From assembly GCA_944354035.1 (NCBI GenBank), contig CALVPS010000006.1:1-64000 (forward strand): DNA of 64,000 bases. Reading direction: 5' to 3'. The notes under the pieces are model-generated. The model was not told the origin of the DNA and made no database searches. It saw only the letters and a list, made by a program, of their open reading frames with translations. A program made the position numbers and the translations under genes. Below, one piece after another: positions 19,258 to 62,665 of the stretch (its first letter is position 1; each line of letters opens with the position of its first letter). The DNA is from an uncultured Clostridia bacterium. Its GTDB lineage: Bacteria; Bacillota; Clostridia; Christensenellales; Borkfalkiaceae.

Positions 19258-19270
19258 GATCGCGTTTTTC

Positions 19271-19380
19271 TCTTTTCTCATCCGGACTATGACCGTCGGT
19301 ACGGGAATTACACCCGTTCGGGGGCTTGCGCCCTTCGCAGACTATACTGCCGGTGGAGACTTTCACTCCGCCCCAAAGAA
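19271..19380 (-). promoter_or_regulatory. FMN riboswitch (RFN element)
   Basis: The minus strand carries the RFN core segments GGGGCGGAGTGAAAGTCTCC, ACCGGCAGTATAGTCTGCGA, TGTAATTCCCGTACCGACGG and ATAGTCCGGATGAGA in the right order, closed by a P1 helix (TCTTT with AAAGA). It senses FMN and acts through the downstream terminator on the ribU-like gene. Confidence 0.97.
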
Positions 19381-19395
19381 TATTCGATTACCTGT

Positions 19396-35408: not shown

Positions 35409-36244
35409 TCGCCCTCTCCGAGGCGCGCAAACACATCGAGCAGCCGCCCGGAGGGAACAAACTCCGGCAGCCCGATCGTGCGGCCCCTGCCGGCAACGTG
35501 AAAGTCGGACCCGCCTGTGATCAGCAGGCCGCGTTCGCGGGCATAGGCGGCAAAGCGCGCCGTATCATCGGCAGTATGCTGCGAATGAAAGCATTCTATT
35601 CCGTCCAGCCCGCCCGCGACCAACGCGTCGGCAAGCCGAAAGAGCGCCTCCTCCGGCAGGGCGATGCGCCCCGGATGCGCCAACGAAGCGATCCCGCCGC
35701 AGGCATGGATCGCCTCTACGGCGTCCTGCGGGGCGGGGCGGCACAGCCCGGAATAGGCGGGGCGCCCTTCGGCAAAGTAGGCAAGATAGGTCTCGCCCTT
35801 TTTTTTGCCGAGGCGGCGCGCAAACGCCGCCACCACGTGCATAGTGTGCAGCGGCGCGCTCTTTTTAACGTGCTCGCGCTCGGCGTCCTCCAACGTCACG
35901 TTCAAATGCAGTAGCGCGTTGGCCTTTCCGATCATGTCGCGCGCCCGCACCACGGCCCCCTCGCACCGTGCCCGCAAAAAGGTGGCATAGGCCGCGTTTT
36001 CCGTGCAGCCGTATCCCAAAATATGCACCTTTTTATCGCCCTCGTAGGCGGAGACTTCCCAACCGGAGACATATTTCAGCCCGTGCGCGCGCGCCGCGGC
36101 GCGTTTTTCGGCAAGCCCCTCCAGGCTGTCGTGGTCGGTCATGGAAAATAGCGCCGCCCCTGCCTCGCGCGCCATGCGGGCGACCTCGTCGGGCGTGTGC
36201 GCGCCGTCGGAATACACGGTGTGGATGTGCAGGTCGGCTTTCAC
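35405..36244 (-). CDS. PHP-domain phosphoesterase (nucleoside 3',5'-bisphosphate phosphatase / RNase AM type)
   Basis: The 279-residue protein has the metal-binding motifs of the TrpH/YciV group: DLHIHTVYSDG at residues 4-14, TDHDS near 37-41, HPGR near 193, and GSDFHV near 253. Homologues remove phosphate from pAp or trim RNA 5' ends. It overlaps recF and vanW by ATGA at each end, so all three are cotranscribed. Confidence 0.88.
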   Translation of the reverse strand: MKADLHIHTVYSDGAHTPDEVARMAREAGAALFSMTDHDSLEGLAEKRAAARAHGLKYVSGWEVSAYEGDKKVHILGYGCTENAAYATFLRARCEGAVVRARDMIGKANALLHLNVTLEDAEREHVKKSAPLHTMHVVAAFARRLGKKKGETYLAYFAEGRPAYSGLCRPAPQDAVEAIHACGGIASLAHPGRIALPEEALFRLADALVAGGLDGIECFHSQHTADDTARFAAYARERGLLITGGSDFHVAGRGRTIGLPEFVPSGRLLDVFARLGEGE

Positions 36245-37326
36245 GGCTGGATCTTGCCCCCCTTGATCTTGATCTTACGGCTCGACGTGCCGTACAAAAC
36301 GCGCTCGGCGTGCGTGCAGGTGAGGATGCACTGCAGATCCTGCACGCGGTCCAGCAATTTTTTGCGGCGGGAAAGGTCGAGCTCGCTCATCACGTCGTCC
36401 AGGATCAGCACGGGCGCCTCGCCCGCCAGCTCTTTAAAAATTTCCGTTTCGGCAAGCTTTAAGGCCAGCGCCGCCGTGCGCGCCTGCCCCTGCGAGCAGT
36501 ACCCGCGCGCGTCCGCGCCGTCGATGGCGATGCGGATATCGTCGCGATGCGGCCCCACGGAGGTGAATCCCAGGCGCAGATCGCGCTCGCGCGAAGCGGC
36601 GAACTGCCCCAGCAGTTTTTGGGCGATGCGGTCTTCCTCCTCCGGATATTCGCCGTCCATCGAAAGCTGCAGCCGTTCGGCGCCGTCCGTAAGATAGGCG
36701 TGCGCCTCGCCCGCCAGCGGCGAAAGGCGCTTTAAATAGCGACGGCGGTGGCGCACCAACACGGCGGCATATACGGCCAGCTGCTCGTCCCAAACGGGCA
36801 GCGTCTCCTCCACCAGCGCGCCGTCGCGCTCCTTTAGCAGATTGTTGCGCTGATCGAGGATCTTTTGGTAGCGCGCAAGCGCCGTGCAATACTCGCGCGA
36901 AGTCTGCGAGATGGAGAGGTTCAAAAAGCGGCGGCGCTCGTCGGGCCCGTCCTGGATGAGGCGCAGCTCGCCCGGCGAAAAGAATACGCTGTTCATGTTC
37001 CCCACAAAGTCCGCCGCCCGCACCACGCGATTGCCGTTTACGTACAGTTCGCGCTTGTTTTCGCAGATGACCGCCTCCAGCGTGACGCGGCCGAAACGGC
37101 TTTTTAACGTGGCGCCGATGCGCGCGCGGTCCGCGCCGCGACGGATGAGCTGCCGGTCGTGCCGAATGCGCAGCGACGAGCCCGTGCACAGGTAAAACAC
37201 CGCCTCGGCACAGTTGGTCTTACCCTGCGCGTTGCGGCCGGTGAGTACGTTCAGCCCCTCCGAAAAGGTGAAACGCTCCCGCTCGTAATTTCTGAAATTT
37301 TCCAAGGTTAAATTTTCGATGACCAT
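36241..37326 (-). CDS. recF: RecF, recombination mediator ATPase
   Basis: The 361-residue SMC-like ATPase loads RecA at gaps. Walker A GRNAQGKTN lies at about residues 34-42, with the signature CSQGQARTAALALKLAE and Walker B VLILDDVMSELD. There is no clear ribosome site before the ATG at 37326. It is divergent from dnaA, unlike the usual dnaA-dnaN-recF order; dnaN and gyrB are absent here. Confidence 0.95.
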   Translation of the reverse strand: MVIENLTLENFRNYERERFTFSEGLNVLTGRNAQGKTNCAEAVFYLCTGSSLRIRHDRQLIRRGADRARIGATLKSRFGRVTLEAVICENKRELYVNGNRVVRAADFVGNMNSVFFSPGELRLIQDGPDERRRFLNLSISQTSREYCTALARYQKILDQRNNLLKERDGALVEETLPVWDEQLAVYAAVLVRHRRRYLKRLSPLAGEAHAYLTDGAERLQLSMDGEYPEEEDRIAQKLLGQFAASRERDLRLGFTSVGPHRDDIRIAIDGADARGYCSQGQARTAALALKLAETEIFKELAGEAPVLILDDVMSELDLSRRKKLLDRVQDLQCILTCTHAERVLYGTSSRKIKIKGGKIQP

Positions 37327-37347: not shown

Positions 37348-37376
37348 TTTATTTTTCGACCGATTTGTACTATAAT
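37348..37376 (+). promoter_or_regulatory. Candidate dnaA promoter
   Basis: TATAAT at 37371-37376 has a weak TTTATT 17 bases upstream. It lies about 450 bases before dnaA, with the inverted-repeat element in between. The complementary strand reads TATAGT at the same place and might serve recF. The 500-base recF-dnaA gap has no recognisable DnaA box (TTATCCACA-like). Confidence 0.35.
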
Positions 37377-37512: not shown

Positions 37513-37786
37513 TATCCTGCAAGGGAAAAAATACGCACCACGCCTCTGGCGGCGTCTTTTTGCTCATCTTCCTTGTAACACCTTGGCATTCCCGCGTCAT
37601 CTTCGCAAAAATCTGACGCGAAAATTTTCTCGCCAAAGGTGCAAAACGATCAAAAGCGGCAAAACGGGCGATAAAACAAGGCGACAAGTACAGGGCGTGC
37701 CGTGCGGCACGGTCAGGCCTTTCAACGAAGGATGAGCGCCGCAGGTTCCGCTTTCGATCGGGTTCGTATTACTCCCTTACAGTATA
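37513..37786. repeat. Dispersed inverted-repeat element, copy A (dnaA leader)
   Basis: The 274-base element is bounded by TATCCTGCAAGGG (37513-37525) and CCCTTACAGTATA (37774-37786), imperfect inverted repeats. Its interior matches copy B at roughly nine of ten positions by eye, in opposite orientation. It contains stem-forming segments CGCGTCA/TGACGCG and CGTGCCGTGCGGCACG. It codes for no protein I can support. It sits between the candidate dnaA promoter and the dnaA gene. The small size, terminal repeats and lack of a transposase fit a MITE-like element. Confidence 0.75.
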
Positions 37787-37827
37787 GCAAAAAACCCAAA
37801 AAAAGCAAAGCGTTGACGAGGGGAAAT

Positions 37828-39168
37828 ATGACGGCTCAATTCGATATTTTATGGAACAAGATCCGCGAGCGGGCAAAAACGCTGGTAACGCCCATTGCGT
37901 ACAGCACCTTTATCGAAGATCTCGTACCCATAGACGTGGTGGGCAAAAAAATCGTTTTGCAGGCGGAGAGCGAGCTTGCCGCCGGGACGATCACCAAAAA
38001 GCATCTGGACAAACTGCGCGAGGCCGTGGCAACGGCCGACGTGGGATTGAACGACGTGGCGATCGTGGTAGAGGGCAGCGAGGAGTATTCGCTGCACGAG
38101 ACGCCGGACGCGCTGGAAGATCCCCCGCTCGTTTTGGACAAGCGCTACACGTTTGAATCGTTTGTGGTGGGCAACTCCAATAAATTTGTATTCGCCGCCG
38201 CAAAGTCGGTGGCGGAGGCCCCCGGCGAAAATTTTAATCCCCTGTACATTTACGGCGGCACCGGCCTGGGAAAGACGCACCTTATGCAGGCCATTGCCAA
38301 CGACATCTCCACAAAAAAGCCTTCGCTGAAAGTCATTTACACGACCAGCGAAAAGTTTTTAAACGAATATGTGGACAGCATGTACGCCAAAAAAGGCGCC
38401 GGACGCGACAACGAATCGCGCTTCCGCAACCGTTACCGCGGCGTAGACGTGCTGCTGATCGACGACATCCAGTTCTGGGCCGGCAAATACGGCGTGCAGG
38501 AGGCGTTTTTCCACGCCTTTAACGAGCTATTCTCGCAGCATAAGCAGATCGTCATCTCCTCCGACTGCCCCGCAAAGGAACTGACGACGCTGGAAGAGCG
38601 ACTGCGCACACGCTTCGAGGGAGGGCTGATCGCCGACATCCAGCCGCCCGACATGGAGACCAAGATCGCCATTTTAAAGCGCAAGGCTCTGGAAAAAAAG
38701 TATATCGTCCCCGACGACGTGCTGGCTTTCCTCGTGAAAAATTCCGACAACAACGTGCGCACGCTGGAGGGCCGCCTGAACACCGTGATCTTTGCCAGCA
38801 AACTGCACGAAGAGCCCATATCGCTCAAGCTGGCGGCACTTGCCCTGCAGGAGAGCATCAACACGGACGAACAGGAAGAGGTCACGCCCGAGGCGATCAT
38901 CCGCGCCACCTGCAGCTATTACAACGTGACCGAGAGCGACCTTTTGGGCAAAAATAAGCGGCAGGACATTGTACGCGCTCGACAGATATGTACCTTTTTG
39001 ATGTGCGACATGCTGGCCCTCCCTTTGGTGACGATCGGCAAGATCATGGGCGGACGCGATCACTCCACGATCATTTACGCGCGCGACAAAGTGAGCGAGC
39101 TGATGCGCGTCAACGACAAGGTATTAAAGGGCGTAAACGACGTAAAGAGCGCGGTATTAAAGCAGTAA
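37828..39168 (+). CDS. dnaA: DnaA, chromosomal replication initiator
   Basis: The 446-residue AAA+ protein opens the origin. Domain III has Walker A GGTGLGKTHL and Walker B VLLIDDIQFW; domain IV carries the DNA-binding signature MGGRDHSTIIYARDKV. I chose the ATG at 37828, preceded by GAGGGG, which gives the normal MTAQFDILWNKIRERAK start. It is followed by mnmG instead of dnaN, with a terminator between. Confidence 0.97.
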   Translation: MTAQFDILWNKIRERAKTLVTPIAYSTFIEDLVPIDVVGKKIVLQAESELAAGTITKKHLDKLREAVATADVGLNDVAIVVEGSEEYSLHETPDALEDPPLVLDKRYTFESFVVGNSNKFVFAAAKSVAEAPGENFNPLYIYGGTGLGKTHLMQAIANDISTKKPSLKVIYTTSEKFLNEYVDSMYAKKGAGRDNESRFRNRYRGVDVLLIDDIQFWAGKYGVQEAFFHAFNELFSQHKQIVISSDCPAKELTTLEERLRTRFEGGLIADIQPPDMETKIAILKRKALEKKYIVPDDVLAFLVKNSDNNVRTLEGRLNTVIFASKLHEEPISLKLAALALQESINTDEQEEVTPEAIIRATCSYYNVTESDLLGKNKRQDIVRARQICTFLMCDMLALPLVTIGKIMGGRDHSTIIYARDKVSELMRVNDKVLKGVNDVKSAVLKQ

Positions 39169-51259: not shown

Positions 51260-51970
51260 TCAGTCGTTGGAGATGAGCGTTCCCAGCTTTTCGCCGCAGA
51301 CGGCGCGGACGATGGAATCTTTTTCGTCCAGCCCGAACGCAAGAACGGGCACGTTGTTCTCCATGCACATGGTGGCGGCGGTGGCGTCCATCGCCTTTAA
51401 CCCCTTGTTTACGATATCGCCGAACGTAAGGTGTTCGTACTTTTTGGCGTTGGGATTTTTGGCAGGATCGCTATCGTAAATGCCGTCTACGTTTTTGGCC
51501 ATCAGCAACACGTCGGCATCGATCTCGCAGGCGCGCTGGGCGGCCGCCGTATCGGTGGAACAATAGGGATTGCCCGTGCCGCACGCCATGATGACGATGC
51601 GCCCCTTTTCGAAATGCGAAAGCGCCTTACGCAGAATATACGGCTCGGCGACCGAAGTCATGATGAGTGCCGTCTGCACGCGGGTGGGGATGCCCTTCTT
51701 TTCGATGGCGTCCATCATGGCCAGCGAATTCATCACCGTGGCCAGCATGCCCATGTGATCGGCCGTGGTACGGTCCATATTCGTCCCCTGCCGGCCGCGC
51801 CAAAAGTTGCCGCCGCCGATGACAAGGCCGATCTGCACCCCCATTTCGTGCACTTTTACGAGCTGATCGACAACCATCGAAACGACGTCTTCGTTGAGAC
51901 CGAACCGCTGCTTGCCGGCAAGTGCCTCGCCCGAAAGTTTCAAAAGGATCCGATGATATTTCGGCGTCAT
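51260..51970 (-). CDS. pyrH: UMP kinase
   Basis: The 236-residue amino-acid-kinase fold protein phosphorylates UMP. KLSGEALAG near residue 11, VIGGGNFWRG near 56, and the ADV-LLMAKNVDGIYDSDP segment near 170 identify bacterial PyrH. GGGAGTAGG precedes the ATG. It is normally directly behind tsf; here a terminator and the inverted-repeat element B intervene. Confidence 0.96.
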   Translation of the reverse strand: MTPKYHRILLKLSGEALAGKQRFGLNEDVVSMVVDQLVKVHEMGVQIGLVIGGGNFWRGRQGTNMDRTTADHMGMLATVMNSLAMMDAIEKKGIPTRVQTALIMTSVAEPYILRKALSHFEKGRIVIMACGTGNPYCSTDTAAAQRACEIDADVLLMAKNVDGIYDSDPAKNPNAKKYEHLTFGDIVNKGLKAMDATAATMCMENNVPVLAFGLDEKDSIVRAVCGEKLGTLISND

Positions 51971-52025: not shown

Positions 52026-52297
52026 TATCCTGTAAGGGGGTGATACGGATCCGATCGAAAGCGGAACCTGCGGCGCTCATACTTCGTTGAAAGGCTTGAC
52101 CGTGCCGCACGGCACGCCCTGTGCCTTTCGCCTTGTTTTATCGCCCGTTTTGCCGCTTTTGATCGTTTTGCACCTTTGGCAGAAAATTTTTGCGTCAGAG
52201 TTTTGCGAAGATGACGCGGGAATACCGAGGTATCGTAAGGAAGATGCGCAAAAAGACGCCGCCAAAGGCATGGTACGTATTTTTCCCTTACAGTATA
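52026..52297. repeat. Dispersed inverted-repeat element, copy B (tsf-pyrH gap)
   Basis: The 272-base copy is bounded by TATCCTGTAAGGG (52026-52038) and CCCTTACAGTATA (52285-52297). Its interior is the reverse complement of copy A apart from scattered differences. The left end sits in an 18-base palindromic unit, CTTACAGTATCCTGTAAG. It splits the usually tight rpsB-tsf-pyrH-frr order. It fills most of the 446-base tsf-pyrH gap. Confidence 0.75.
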
Positions 52298-52320
52298 GCA
52301 TACCAAAACAAAAAATGCAA
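52292..52320 (-). promoter_or_regulatory. Promoter-like site spanning the edge of copy B, reading toward pyrH
   Basis: On the minus strand TTGCAT (52320-52315, flanking DNA) and TATACT (52297-52292, inside the terminal repeat) are 17 bases apart with an extended-10 TGC. It would transcribe through copy B into pyrH and the downstream operon. Confidence 0.5.
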
Positions 52321-59889: not shown

Positions 59890-60594
59890 CTATGTCTGCC
59901 GCGACGCCCTGCCGTTCAGCTTTTTGATCAGAGCGATATAGCCGATCGAAATGCCCGAAATAAACAGGATCAGCAGAACGATCCACCAGACGCAACCCAT
60001 AAAATAGGGCATCTCCGAACTAAAGCCGAACGCACCGGCGGGCGAATCCCAATTGAGGAAAAAGTAGGGATAATTGTTGCCGCCGCCGAAATCCCAATCG
60101 AGCGCATACCCGATACCCGCAAATACAAGGTAATACACGGGCGGGATCAGCGCAAAGAAAAACTGCTTATAGCCGAGCTTTTGCGGACGGCAGAGGAACA
60201 GATCGACCACTGCGGCAAGCGGCACGACGACGTGGGTCAGCACGTTCGCCGCCGATCGGAAACTGTTCGGCATGGTGGGAGCAAGCACGCAACAGAAGAC
60301 GATCCCCGTCAGGGTGATCGAGACGGTGAACACAAACTTGACGACGTGCAGAGCGTGCGGGATCACAAAAGCAGGTTTAACGAGTGTGACGAGGTTCAGC
60401 ACAAAAAATACGGCGCAGACGGCGCCGATCCAGAGATTGGACTGTACGGTAAAGTATAAAAACGCCGTACCTCCGGCCATAAAGTCCCCGCCCATCCGCG
60501 AAGTGAGCGCGATCCCCGCGATCATGCACGTCGCGGTAAGAAGCTGCAGCACGAGCGAAACGGCCTTTGCCGCCGTGCATCTGCGTTCTGTCAT
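59890..60594 (-). CDS. Pr6Pr-family membrane protein
   Basis: The 234-residue protein has six or seven membrane helices and the Pr6Pr pattern FTVQSNLWIGAVCAVFFVLN, HVVVPLAAVVDLFLC and PPVYYLVFAGIGYA. The family has no defined biochemical function. The ATG at 60594 has a GGGTAAAGGG-like site. The nearest DNA upstream is repeat copy C. Confidence 0.85.
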   Translation of the reverse strand: MTERRCTAAKAVSLVLQLLTATCMIAGIALTSRMGGDFMAGGTAFLYFTVQSNLWIGAVCAVFFVLNLVTLVKPAFVIPHALHVVKFVFTVSITLTGIVFCCVLAPTMPNSFRSAANVLTHVVVPLAAVVDLFLCRPQKLGYKQFFFALIPPVYYLVFAGIGYALDWDFGGGNNYPYFFLNWDSPAGAFGFSSEMPYFMGCVWWIVLLILFISGISIGYIALIKKLNGRASRQT

Positions 60595-62665
60595 ACCCTT
60601 TACCCCGTTTTCCTTTTGATTTTTTACAATACGCCGGATGGGAGCGGCGCGTCCCTTCCCCCGCGGCATGCCGTAAGGAGCGACGCGTACCCGCCGGCAC
60701 GCAAAATACGACGCGATCGAATGCGGCAAGACGGGCGCCTCGGCGAGGTGAAGGCCGCAGCGCACCGCGCAACGCGGGCAAGCGCTTAGCAACGCATAGG
60801 CGCCCCGGGTTTCGCTTTCGATCGGGTTCGTCCGATCCCCTTACAGTATACCAAAAAAATTTGCCGACCGCAAGGATTTGCGGCCGACGGCTTTGCATTA
60901 TTTCCGTTCGAGACAAAGCAGCGTCTCGACGTGTGTCGCCGCTGCCTTTTTGATACGCATCTTCGCCCTCGTATTCCGACGAGTGATACGATTCTTTACG
61001 GGCGGTATAGCTTTTGCGCGGACTCCTGAAATCGTGCGATGTCAGGCTGTCCTTAAAGCCAGATTTATAGATAAAAGTTATAAGTTCGGGGTCTTTGTTG
61101 CCCTCTTCATCATAGCCGCCGACAATTACCCTTTCGACAATGCTTTCAAAGACGTATCTGTCAAATTCTTCAAGCACGGCGTGTTCTTCCAGCGTCTTGC
61201 GGAATACCGCTATTCTCTCCCTGACGTTGCCGTAAACCTTTGCCGCTTCCTCGCATTGGGCGAGCTCGCCCTTGGCTACCTCTATTTTAGCAGACAGCTC
61301 TGAATATTTCAACTCAAAATCTTCTTTAATTAAAACTTCGTCCAGCCTCATATCGACGAGCTTTGCCCTCTTCCCTTCGAGCGCGGCGACATCGCGTTTA
61401 GCTTTTTCGAGCTGTTTTAAAGAATTATCTTCCGAAAGATTCTTTTCAACACGCGCAAGGAATTCTTCCAGCACCCCGTCGGCATTTTCGCAGAGCAGCT
61501 TGTACGACTCGACAAACGCCTTCTTAATTTGCACTTCCTCCACGCCCTTGCTGTCGGGGCAGAATTTTTTGCCGCCTTTCGTGGCTTCGACGCACTGCCA
61601 TACAACTTTGCTGTGAGCAGTTCCGCTATGCCAGCATCTGCGCGTCAGAGTCCCGCCGCAAAATCCGCATTTAATCAGACAACTGAAAGCGTACTTGCGC
61701 GTAAATATTTCGCGCTTCCCGCCGTCGGTCTTGCGGGGATTGCTTCTGCGGTGTAATATTTCCTGCGCCTTTTCGAAAACTTCTTCCGAAATAATCGGCT
61801 CGTGGTGGTCAGCCAGATAATATCTGTCCTCTTCCCCGAAATTGGTGAGTCTGCGCTTTGATATGGGGTCAACGGTGAAGGTTTTGCCCATTAGTAAATC
61901 GCCCTTGTACTTTTCGTTTTTGATAATGCCTATAACCGTAGATTCGGGCCAAGCCGTGCCGCCGCGCTTGGTTTTATAGCCGAGATTTCGTAGCTCTTTT
62001 GAAATGACGCTGCCGCCTGCACCTTCAATATATCTTCTGAAAATGTAGCGCACAATCTCCGCTTCCTCTTCGTTGACGGATATGGATTTGCTTACGGGGT
62101 CATAGTCGTATCCGAGGCAGCCCTGAAAGCCGACCATTTCACCGCGTTGCATCTTCATCTTTAAGCCCTTTTTGACATTGGCAGATATGTTCTCCACTTC
62201 CTGCTGGGCGACTGAGCTCAGGACGACGAGCAAAAGCTCGCCGTCCATCGTCAGCGTGTTGATGTTCTCTTCCTCGAAGAATACGGCAATATTCCTCTCT
62301 TTGAGCATACGCACATATTTCAGCGTGTCCAGAGTATTCCTTGCAAAACGCGAAATTGACTTGGTTATGACCATATCCACCTCGCCGTTCATACAATCAT
62401 TGATGAGCCTTTGGAATTCCTCGCGCTTGGCAACCTGCGTACCCGTAATACCCTCATCGGCGTAGATTCCCGCGAACAGCCAATCGTCTTTCTTTTTTAT
62501 GAGCTCAGTATAGTATGTAACCTGCGAGCGATAGCTGTTTAGCTGGTCTTCGTCGTTCGTGCTCACCCTGCAATAGGCGGCTACGCGCAGTTTCCCCTTT
62601 GCGTTACCGCCTTTTCTGCGGGCATAAACACGATTATTGCCTTTAATTACTTCAACGTTCATCAT
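60377..62665 (-). CDS. Large serine recombinase (integrase), reading through the element boundary
   Basis: The N-terminal resolvase domain has the catalytic serine in AAYCRVSTNDED (Ser35), followed by the Recombinase domain, a zinc-ribbon (CGFCGGTLTRRCW ... FCPDS) and a long coiled coil (about 420-500). Such enzymes integrate conjugative or genomic-island elements. About 570 residues fit the family; the remaining ~190 (from about 60946 downward) are translated from host DNA, the rlmD remnant, repeat C and the Pr6Pr 5' region, with no in-frame stop until 60377. The two adjacent ATGs at 62665/62662 follow AAAGGTGA. Lower GC than the host backbone marks it as acquired. Confidence 0.9.
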   Translation of the reverse strand: MMNVEVIKGNNRVYARRKGGNAKGKLRVAAYCRVSTNDEDQLNSYRSQVTYYTELIKKKDDWLFAGIYADEGITGTQVAKREEFQRLINDCMNGEVDMVITKSISRFARNTLDTLKYVRMLKERNIAVFFEEENINTLTMDGELLLVVLSSVAQQEVENISANVKKGLKMKMQRGEMVGFQGCLGYDYDPVSKSISVNEEEAEIVRYIFRRYIEGAGGSVISKELRNLGYKTKRGGTAWPESTVIGIIKNEKYKGDLLMGKTFTVDPISKRRLTNFGEEDRYYLADHHEPIISEEVFEKAQEILHRRSNPRKTDGGKREIFTRKYAFSCLIKCGFCGGTLTRRCWHSGTAHSKVVWQCVEATKGGKKFCPDSKGVEEVQIKKAFVESYKLLCENADGVLEEFLARVEKNLSEDNSLKQLEKAKRDVAALEGKRAKLVDMRLDEVLIKEDFELKYSELSAKIEVAKGELAQCEEAAKVYGNVRERIAVFRKTLEEHAVLEEFDRYVFESIVERVIVGGYDEEGNKDPELITFIYKSGFKDSLTSHDFRSPRKSYTARKESYHSSEYEGEDAYQKGSGDTRRDAALSRTEIMQSRRPQILAVGKFFWYTVRGSDEPDRKRNPGRLCVAKRLPALRGALRPSPRRGARLAAFDRVVFCVPAGTRRSLRHAAGEGTRRSHPAYCKKSKGKRGKGYDRTQMHGGKGRFARAAASYRDVHDRGDRAHFADGRGLYGRRYGVFILYRTVQSLDRRRLRRIFCAEPRHTR
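60669..60850. repeat. Dispersed inverted-repeat element, copy C (shorter, diverged)
   Basis: The right end (TTCGCTTTCGATCGGGTTCG then CCCCTTACAGTATA to 60850) and an inner segment near 60718-60740 (GCGGCAAGACGGGCG) match copies A and B in the orientation of A. The left part is much reduced and poorly conserved; the left boundary (GCCGTAAGG) is uncertain. It lies between the Pr6Pr gene and the mobile-element boundary. Confidence 0.6.
60853..60892 (-). terminator. Terminator after the rlmD remnant
   Basis: On the minus strand an imperfect stem (TTGCGG/CCGCAA core, GCCG flanks) is followed by AAATTTTTTT. It lies directly behind the remnant stop codon and abuts repeat C. Confidence 0.7.
60898..60960 (-). 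pseudogene. 3' remnant of rlmD-like 23S rRNA uracil methyltransferase gene
   Basis: In a frame different from the recombinase, the minus strand reads RIKKAAATHVETLLCLERK and a TAA at 60900-60898. The HVET motif plus a short basic tail is the usual C-terminus of RlmD/RumA-type m5U methyltransferases. A terminator follows directly. This is what remains on this side if the element integrated at the 3' end of that gene. How much of the first residues is host or element DNA is unclear. Confidence 0.5.
60930..60965. other. Probable attachment-site junction of the mobile element
   Basis: Upstream of about 60960 the minus-strand DNA encodes recombinase; downstream it encodes the methyltransferase tail. 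The crossover must lie near here, but the exact core cannot be fixed without the other junction. Confidence 0.45.

Follow-up and report, generated by a model that had tools for sequence, protein, structure and literature searches.

A MITE-like mobile element of chicken-gut Clostridia that probably enters -10 boxes and rebuilds them as TATACT

The spacer between the divergent genes dnaA and recF of a chicken-gut Clostridia bacterium, placed by its DnaA relatives in or beside Candidatus Gallimonas, holds a repeated segment of about 270 bp, which raises the question of what this segment is and how it can occupy such a place. The window, i.e. the whole stretch of DNA analyzed, comprises 64 kb. The initial annotation had described a segment at 37513-37786 which recurs nearly whole at 52026-52297 and in shortened form at 60669-60850, and sequence inspection and BLAST confirmed these copies (A, B and C, respectively, the last at 60671-60850), with copy B lying on the opposite strand to copy A at 91% identity. 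The inverted ends were also confirmed, but not the TATC/TATA termini, since these include target sequence. Copy A proper extends from 37516 to 37783 (+; CCTGCAAGGG...CCCTTACAGT; 268 bp with the C(A)CTG...CAGT termini counted in) and is flanked by a 2-bp AT target duplication at 37514-37515 and 37784-37785. Copy B (52029-52294, -) is located in the pyrH leader, and most of the GTATC that flanks it on the left belongs to the target. The sequence CTCTTACAG adjoining copy B was considered as a second element end and rejected, since a near-identical flank in the empty site of genome G043 marks it as ancestral. Copy C (60671-60847, +) is internally reduced to about 177 bp. An open frame of 762 aa encoding a large serine recombinase (Resolvase, Recombinase, zinc ribbon; 60377-62665, -) crosses copy C without a stop, and the native end of this gene may have been lost.

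Judged from its sequence features, the element is non-coding, MITE-like and mobile, with a length of about 270-280 bp and inverted ends of roughly 22 bp (ACTGTAAGGGANNAATACGAACC). Sampled copies ranged from 27 to 630 bp with a mode of 275 bp. The absence of a supported ORF was borne out, and the ORFs seen in forms of 486-630 bp appear to be fortuitous. Also, the MITE-like character proposed at the outset agrees with the short length (under about 600 bp), the inverted ends and lack of coding capacity, the target duplication, many copies, empty sites and a copy interrupting a gene; a source transposase was not found.

The three copies in 64 kb noted at first are real but understate the size of the family. 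When copy A was compared by BLAST with the 51 contigs (1.5 Mb) of the host genome, 11 match rows resulted, some of which belong to one and the same copy, and the end CCTTACAGTATA with at most one mismatch occurred at 22 sites versus 5 for the reversed control; the end scans also uncovered more divergent copies. The exact 13-mer end CCCTTACAGTATA was present in 20 of 103 congeneric genomes with up to 38 matches per genome (controls 0-1), in some of them paired about 275-283 bp apart, and the fuller end CTGTAAGGGANNAATNCGAAC gave 3-44 matches in each of 11 genomes with none for the control. In a family-level sample of 201 genomes, end matches were found in 27. The spread is patchy: in three other genera (G114, G172, G266), a single species each is rich in copies; some other family-level matches are single ones with two mismatches and may be due to chance. 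All copy counts are from sequence searches. The mean similarity of copies was 0.85-0.97 within one genome and 0.80 between genomes, which fits species-specific bursts. Searching the genome and its relatives thereby yielded further copies as well as alleles of relatives that lack the element, and showed that similarity does not extend past the inverted ends, so that the initial annotation's reading of a mobile element stands. The element was not found in the viral contigs, phages and plasmids searched, and none of the papers searched that name Gallimonas, judged by title and abstract, was about repeats.

By alignment of filled and empty loci, copies A and B and five copies in relatives could be matched to orthologous sites without the element. 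The target is a T[AT]A core, usually within a sigma-A -10 box, with a 2-bp duplication of AT; of 71 sites, 68 had a matching AT at both flanks, and 82% had T before and A after. The dnaA-recF spacer is empty in about 20 congeners, most of them with TATAAT where the host genome (G000, copy A) and G040 hold the element, and on the minus strand the relatives' recF promoter reads TGG/TGC-TATAAT at the exact insertion point of both. Since the insertions in G000 and G040 are oppositely oriented, they are probably independent. Several relatives (L112, L113, L115, L116) carry other, unrelated long inserts right beside the recF promoter in this spacer, a possible hot spot of insertion.

Further empty alleles point to the same target. 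Three sites in G025 have single-TATA empty alleles in G011, G036, G039, G043 and others, and a single TATA core was also found in empty orthologs of the pyrH site (copy B) and of loci L107 and L108. In the G043 assembly, pyrH-leader sequence adjoins an element at one contig end, whereas the pyrH site is empty on a different contig (L102, 1234-1508, and L280), which reflects strain variation or an assembly join. At L108, the -10 box is TATCAT when empty and TATACT when filled, and at L107 the insertion lies immediately after TATAAT/TACAAT. With the two loci sharing one orientation, symmetry leaves two possibilities, namely ends ACTG...CAGT with duplication of AT, or ends TACTG...CAGTA without any duplication. 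A four-bp TATA duplication was ruled out by L107, L108 and their empty sites, and the TA duplication of IS630/Tc1-derived elements does not agree with these two loci, which fit AT (or no duplication). Neighboring copies abut with the TATA common to both. In G040, one copy splits an ABC-type ATPase ORF, and the frame is continuous again over 376 codons once the element and 4 bp are taken out.

What an insertion of this kind would do to a promoter can be read from the junction. As the duplicated AT forms -10 positions 2-3 and the element starts with ACTG, TAT is joined to ACT and a new -10 hexamer TATACT arises in an unchanged place, with the native -35, the spacing and any TG extension untouched by the insertion. 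The rebuilt promoter can be read directly from the sequences; that it is active is a prediction. At copy A, the rebuilt -10 TATACT (37781-37786, -), which is preceded by TGC and is TATAAT in element-free relatives, lies 16 nt from the -35-like TTGCTT (37803-37808, -), or 17 nt from TTTGCT, and this promoter end is co-directional with recF (SMC_N/RecF family; 36241-37326, -). Copy A had been proposed to separate a candidate promoter from dnaA (37828-39168, +). It does lie between dnaA and a candidate -10 box TATAAT (37371-37376, +) that is conserved before this gene in congeners; the site that it entered, however, is precisely the -10 box of the divergent recF promoter. With the conserved dnaA -10 box upstream of it, the transcripts of dnaA and recF would both carry copy A in their leaders. 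The effect on initiation control put forward by the initial annotation, through altered DnaA levels, is hypothetical. At copy B, the rebuilt -10 TATACT (52292-52297, -) is 17 nt from the native -35 TTGCAT (52315-52320, -) of the putative pyrH promoter, and a pyrH-like UMP kinase gene (AA_kinase family; 51260-51970, -) follows downstream of the copy. The end of copy C makes a -10 TATACT (60845-60850, -) 17 nt from a -35-like TTGCGG (60868-60873, -).

Across the sampled copies, a TTGNNN motif 16-18 nt from the rebuilt -10 box gave 26 promoter/gene pairings, and all 26 were co-directional with the gene beyond the element. In a stricter set, a -35 was found at 22 of 35 sites with correct directions in 23 of 23 cases; about a third of the copies are without a recognizable -35. 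As the -35-bearing copies are all co-directional with a gene, each would become the 5′ leader of that gene. In the G036 subfamily (L260, L261), both ends are changed together (GTGTAAGGG...CCCTTACAC) and the rebuilt -10 is TATAGT. Solo ends of about 30-60 bp stand before genes as -10 plus start region (L085, about 1175; L009, about 1501; L017, about 1501) and look as if the rebuilt promoter stayed while the remainder of the element went.

These counts have to be read against intergenic TATA sites lacking the element, of which 44 of 110 (40%) have a -35, with 42 of 45 directions pointing to a gene. The difference between filled sites (63%) and control sites (40%) is modest (Fisher p = 0.02), and with this null set of 110 sites an initially assumed strong targeting of promoters was cut to a modest one. 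Since 40% of the control sites are promoter-like, most of the promoter association is credited to TATA targeting and survival. There is an about even chance that the promoter link is a by-product, i.e. that the enzyme reads TATA only, coding insertions are purged, intergenic TATA sites are mostly -10 boxes and the rebuilt hexamer is coincidental. The target profile, which is symmetric about TATA, agrees with this, as do the control frequencies, whereas the excess of -35 motifs at filled sites does not, nor does the fact that the element end supplies exactly -10 positions 4-6 and converts TATCAT or TATAAT to TATACT at the same spacing. Since such a by-product concerns the choice of sites and not the rebuilt promoter, it is compatible with the explanation we prefer.

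This explanation, to which we assign a probability of roughly 0.8, is that a MITE-like element enters -10 boxes or other T[AT]A cores, rebuilds TATACT, is kept as a folded leader and is moved in trans. Insertion at a T[AT]A core, in many copies a sigma-A -10 box, would duplicate AT, and the end letters of the element would form a new TATACT with retention of the native -35 and spacing. The promoter would go on firing, now into the element, which would head the host gene's mRNA as some 270 nt of folded 5′ leader. As promoter firing would be preserved, insertion would be nearly neutral and copies could build up before genes. The branched fold would be under selection either as leader RNA or as DNA or RNA required for mobilization, which would be accomplished by an enzyme acting in trans.

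Such a fold was found by alignment of 30 full copies (284 columns), the consensus having two branched arms and a terminal stem in which the ends pair. Double changes occurred in 22 of 74 pairs, in 124 cells versus a mean of 36 after shuffling and 3-32 in slid controls, and in the three other genera the architecture is kept with different arm sequences. Of the structured RNA suggested by the initial annotation, the conserved, covarying fold can therefore be retained; it could be formed by RNA of either strand or by DNA, GU/AC counts being 40 versus 33 overall and 31 versus 16 in the inner helices (p = 0.04, uncorrected and with the kinship of copies ignored). End 1 is at the promoter side in 19 of 25 cases (19 vs 6, p = 0.015, uncorrected for the shared ancestry of copies), hinting at a preferred transcript strand.

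The fold allows two other readings. In one, the copies are regulatory RNAs (genes or leaders, akin to riboswitches or attenuators) that spread together with their promoter; mobility is then incidental, and the fold controls the downstream gene. Strong covariation, the bias of end 1, solo ends before genes and weak terminator-like hairpins within the element are in line with it, but the latter are no more frequent than in shuffles (2 vs 1.5), the GU/AC test favors neither strand overall, the downstream genes (recF, pyrH and others) are unrelated, most sites are not common between species and one copy lies within a gene. Moreover, a search of the element against Rfam 15 gave no match at gathering (best 15.3 bits, E 2.3). 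We therefore regard a regulatory RNA as distinctly improbable. The sole Rfam match within the window is an FMN riboswitch at 19266-19384 (-; 100.8 bits). The second reading takes the fold as functionless and its covariation as unselected, with stems kept matched by template switching between palindrome arms. Long inverted arms are known substrates of this quasipalindrome correction, and the strand counts do not decide the matter; yet correction would tend toward perfect palindromes, whereas here the separate stems of a branched fold stay paired across genera and unpaired stretches are conserved, which makes this origin of the covariation rather doubtful.

For the preferred explanation, the mobilizing enzyme is the remaining component. 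Element end pairs enclosing a transposase, or an IS with ACTGTAAGGG ends, were not found in 11 genomes, which are incomplete metagenome assemblies. A full-length, autonomous relative was not found either, as the copies at contig ends all carry the inside of the short element. PF00665 matches were rejected as a source, being IS3-like or IS30-like with different ends. An IS30-family IS is common to G025 and G266 (L362 and L363, about 911-1992), which belong to different genera, at 82% DNA identity, and in the host genome an IS30-family fragment lies where one contig starts (start of L364).

The element could descend by internal deletion from an IS of the IS630/Tc1 or IS30 type with a 2-bp duplication. 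IS30 is a family with short target duplications, and the 2-bp duplication, the abutting copies sharing TATA, and the IS30-family gene in G025 and G266 and fragment in G000 are consistent with such an origin. Against it, the ends of the IS30-type IS (TGAATT...AAGTGCAACA) differ from those of the element, for which an IS30 derivation was rejected, PF13358 (the DDE_3 domain of IS630) and PF01609 were absent from nine element-rich genomes (incomplete metagenome assemblies), and the end pairs never enclose a transposase; descent from these IS types thus appears unlikely. A further conceivable but tentative proposal is a mobile structured nucleic acid that prefers -10 boxes, repairs them by means of its ends, is kept as a folded 5′ leader and is moved by an enzyme outside the DDE families tested, so that promoter-borne leaders would have spread across the family by transposition.

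The preferred explanation suggests how a mobile element can occupy housekeeping promoters (recF beside dnaA, pyrH) without silencing them, by rebuilding the -10 box. The copies also serve as natural experiments on promoter tolerance and on leaders that are long and folded, and they call for caution when promoters and leaders are annotated in these genomes. Rebuilding of this type is known in some Neisseria Correia copies; in the present case it is common, the lineage is unrelated and ancestral alleles reveal the state before and after.

Among known systems, the element resembles prokaryotic MITEs such as ERIC, RUP, BOX and others in size, inverted ends, copy number, intergenic place, a stable transcript fold (predicted here) and occasional interruption of a gene (PMC10969869). 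A 2024 review describes promoter-bearing and transcript-folding MITEs in general (PMC10969869); the element differs in that no IS was detected as its source and that rebuilding of the -10 by its ends is a common outcome. With the CREE (nemis) of Neisseria it shares a short, non-coding sequence with inverted ends starting TATA, an intergenic place before genes, transcribed stem-loops (predicted here) and the absence of a transposase inside. In CREE, the "Snyder promoter" combines a native -35 with the element's six initial bases, and 15 potential Snyder promoters were counted among about 113 copies in one strain (PMC2649163). The combination of a native -35 with a -10 in the element end, at 22 of 35 sites and always in the correct direction, is comparable by analogy only. 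In contrast to CREE, with 15 of about 113, more than half of the sampled copies here carry potential promoters, the ends are TATACTGTAAGGG instead of TATAGYGGATTAA, an AT duplication fits best, the hosts belong to another phylum and the 275-bp branched fold shows internal covariation. With end sequence, host phylum, fold and frequency all differing, the element works like CREE but is not CREE.
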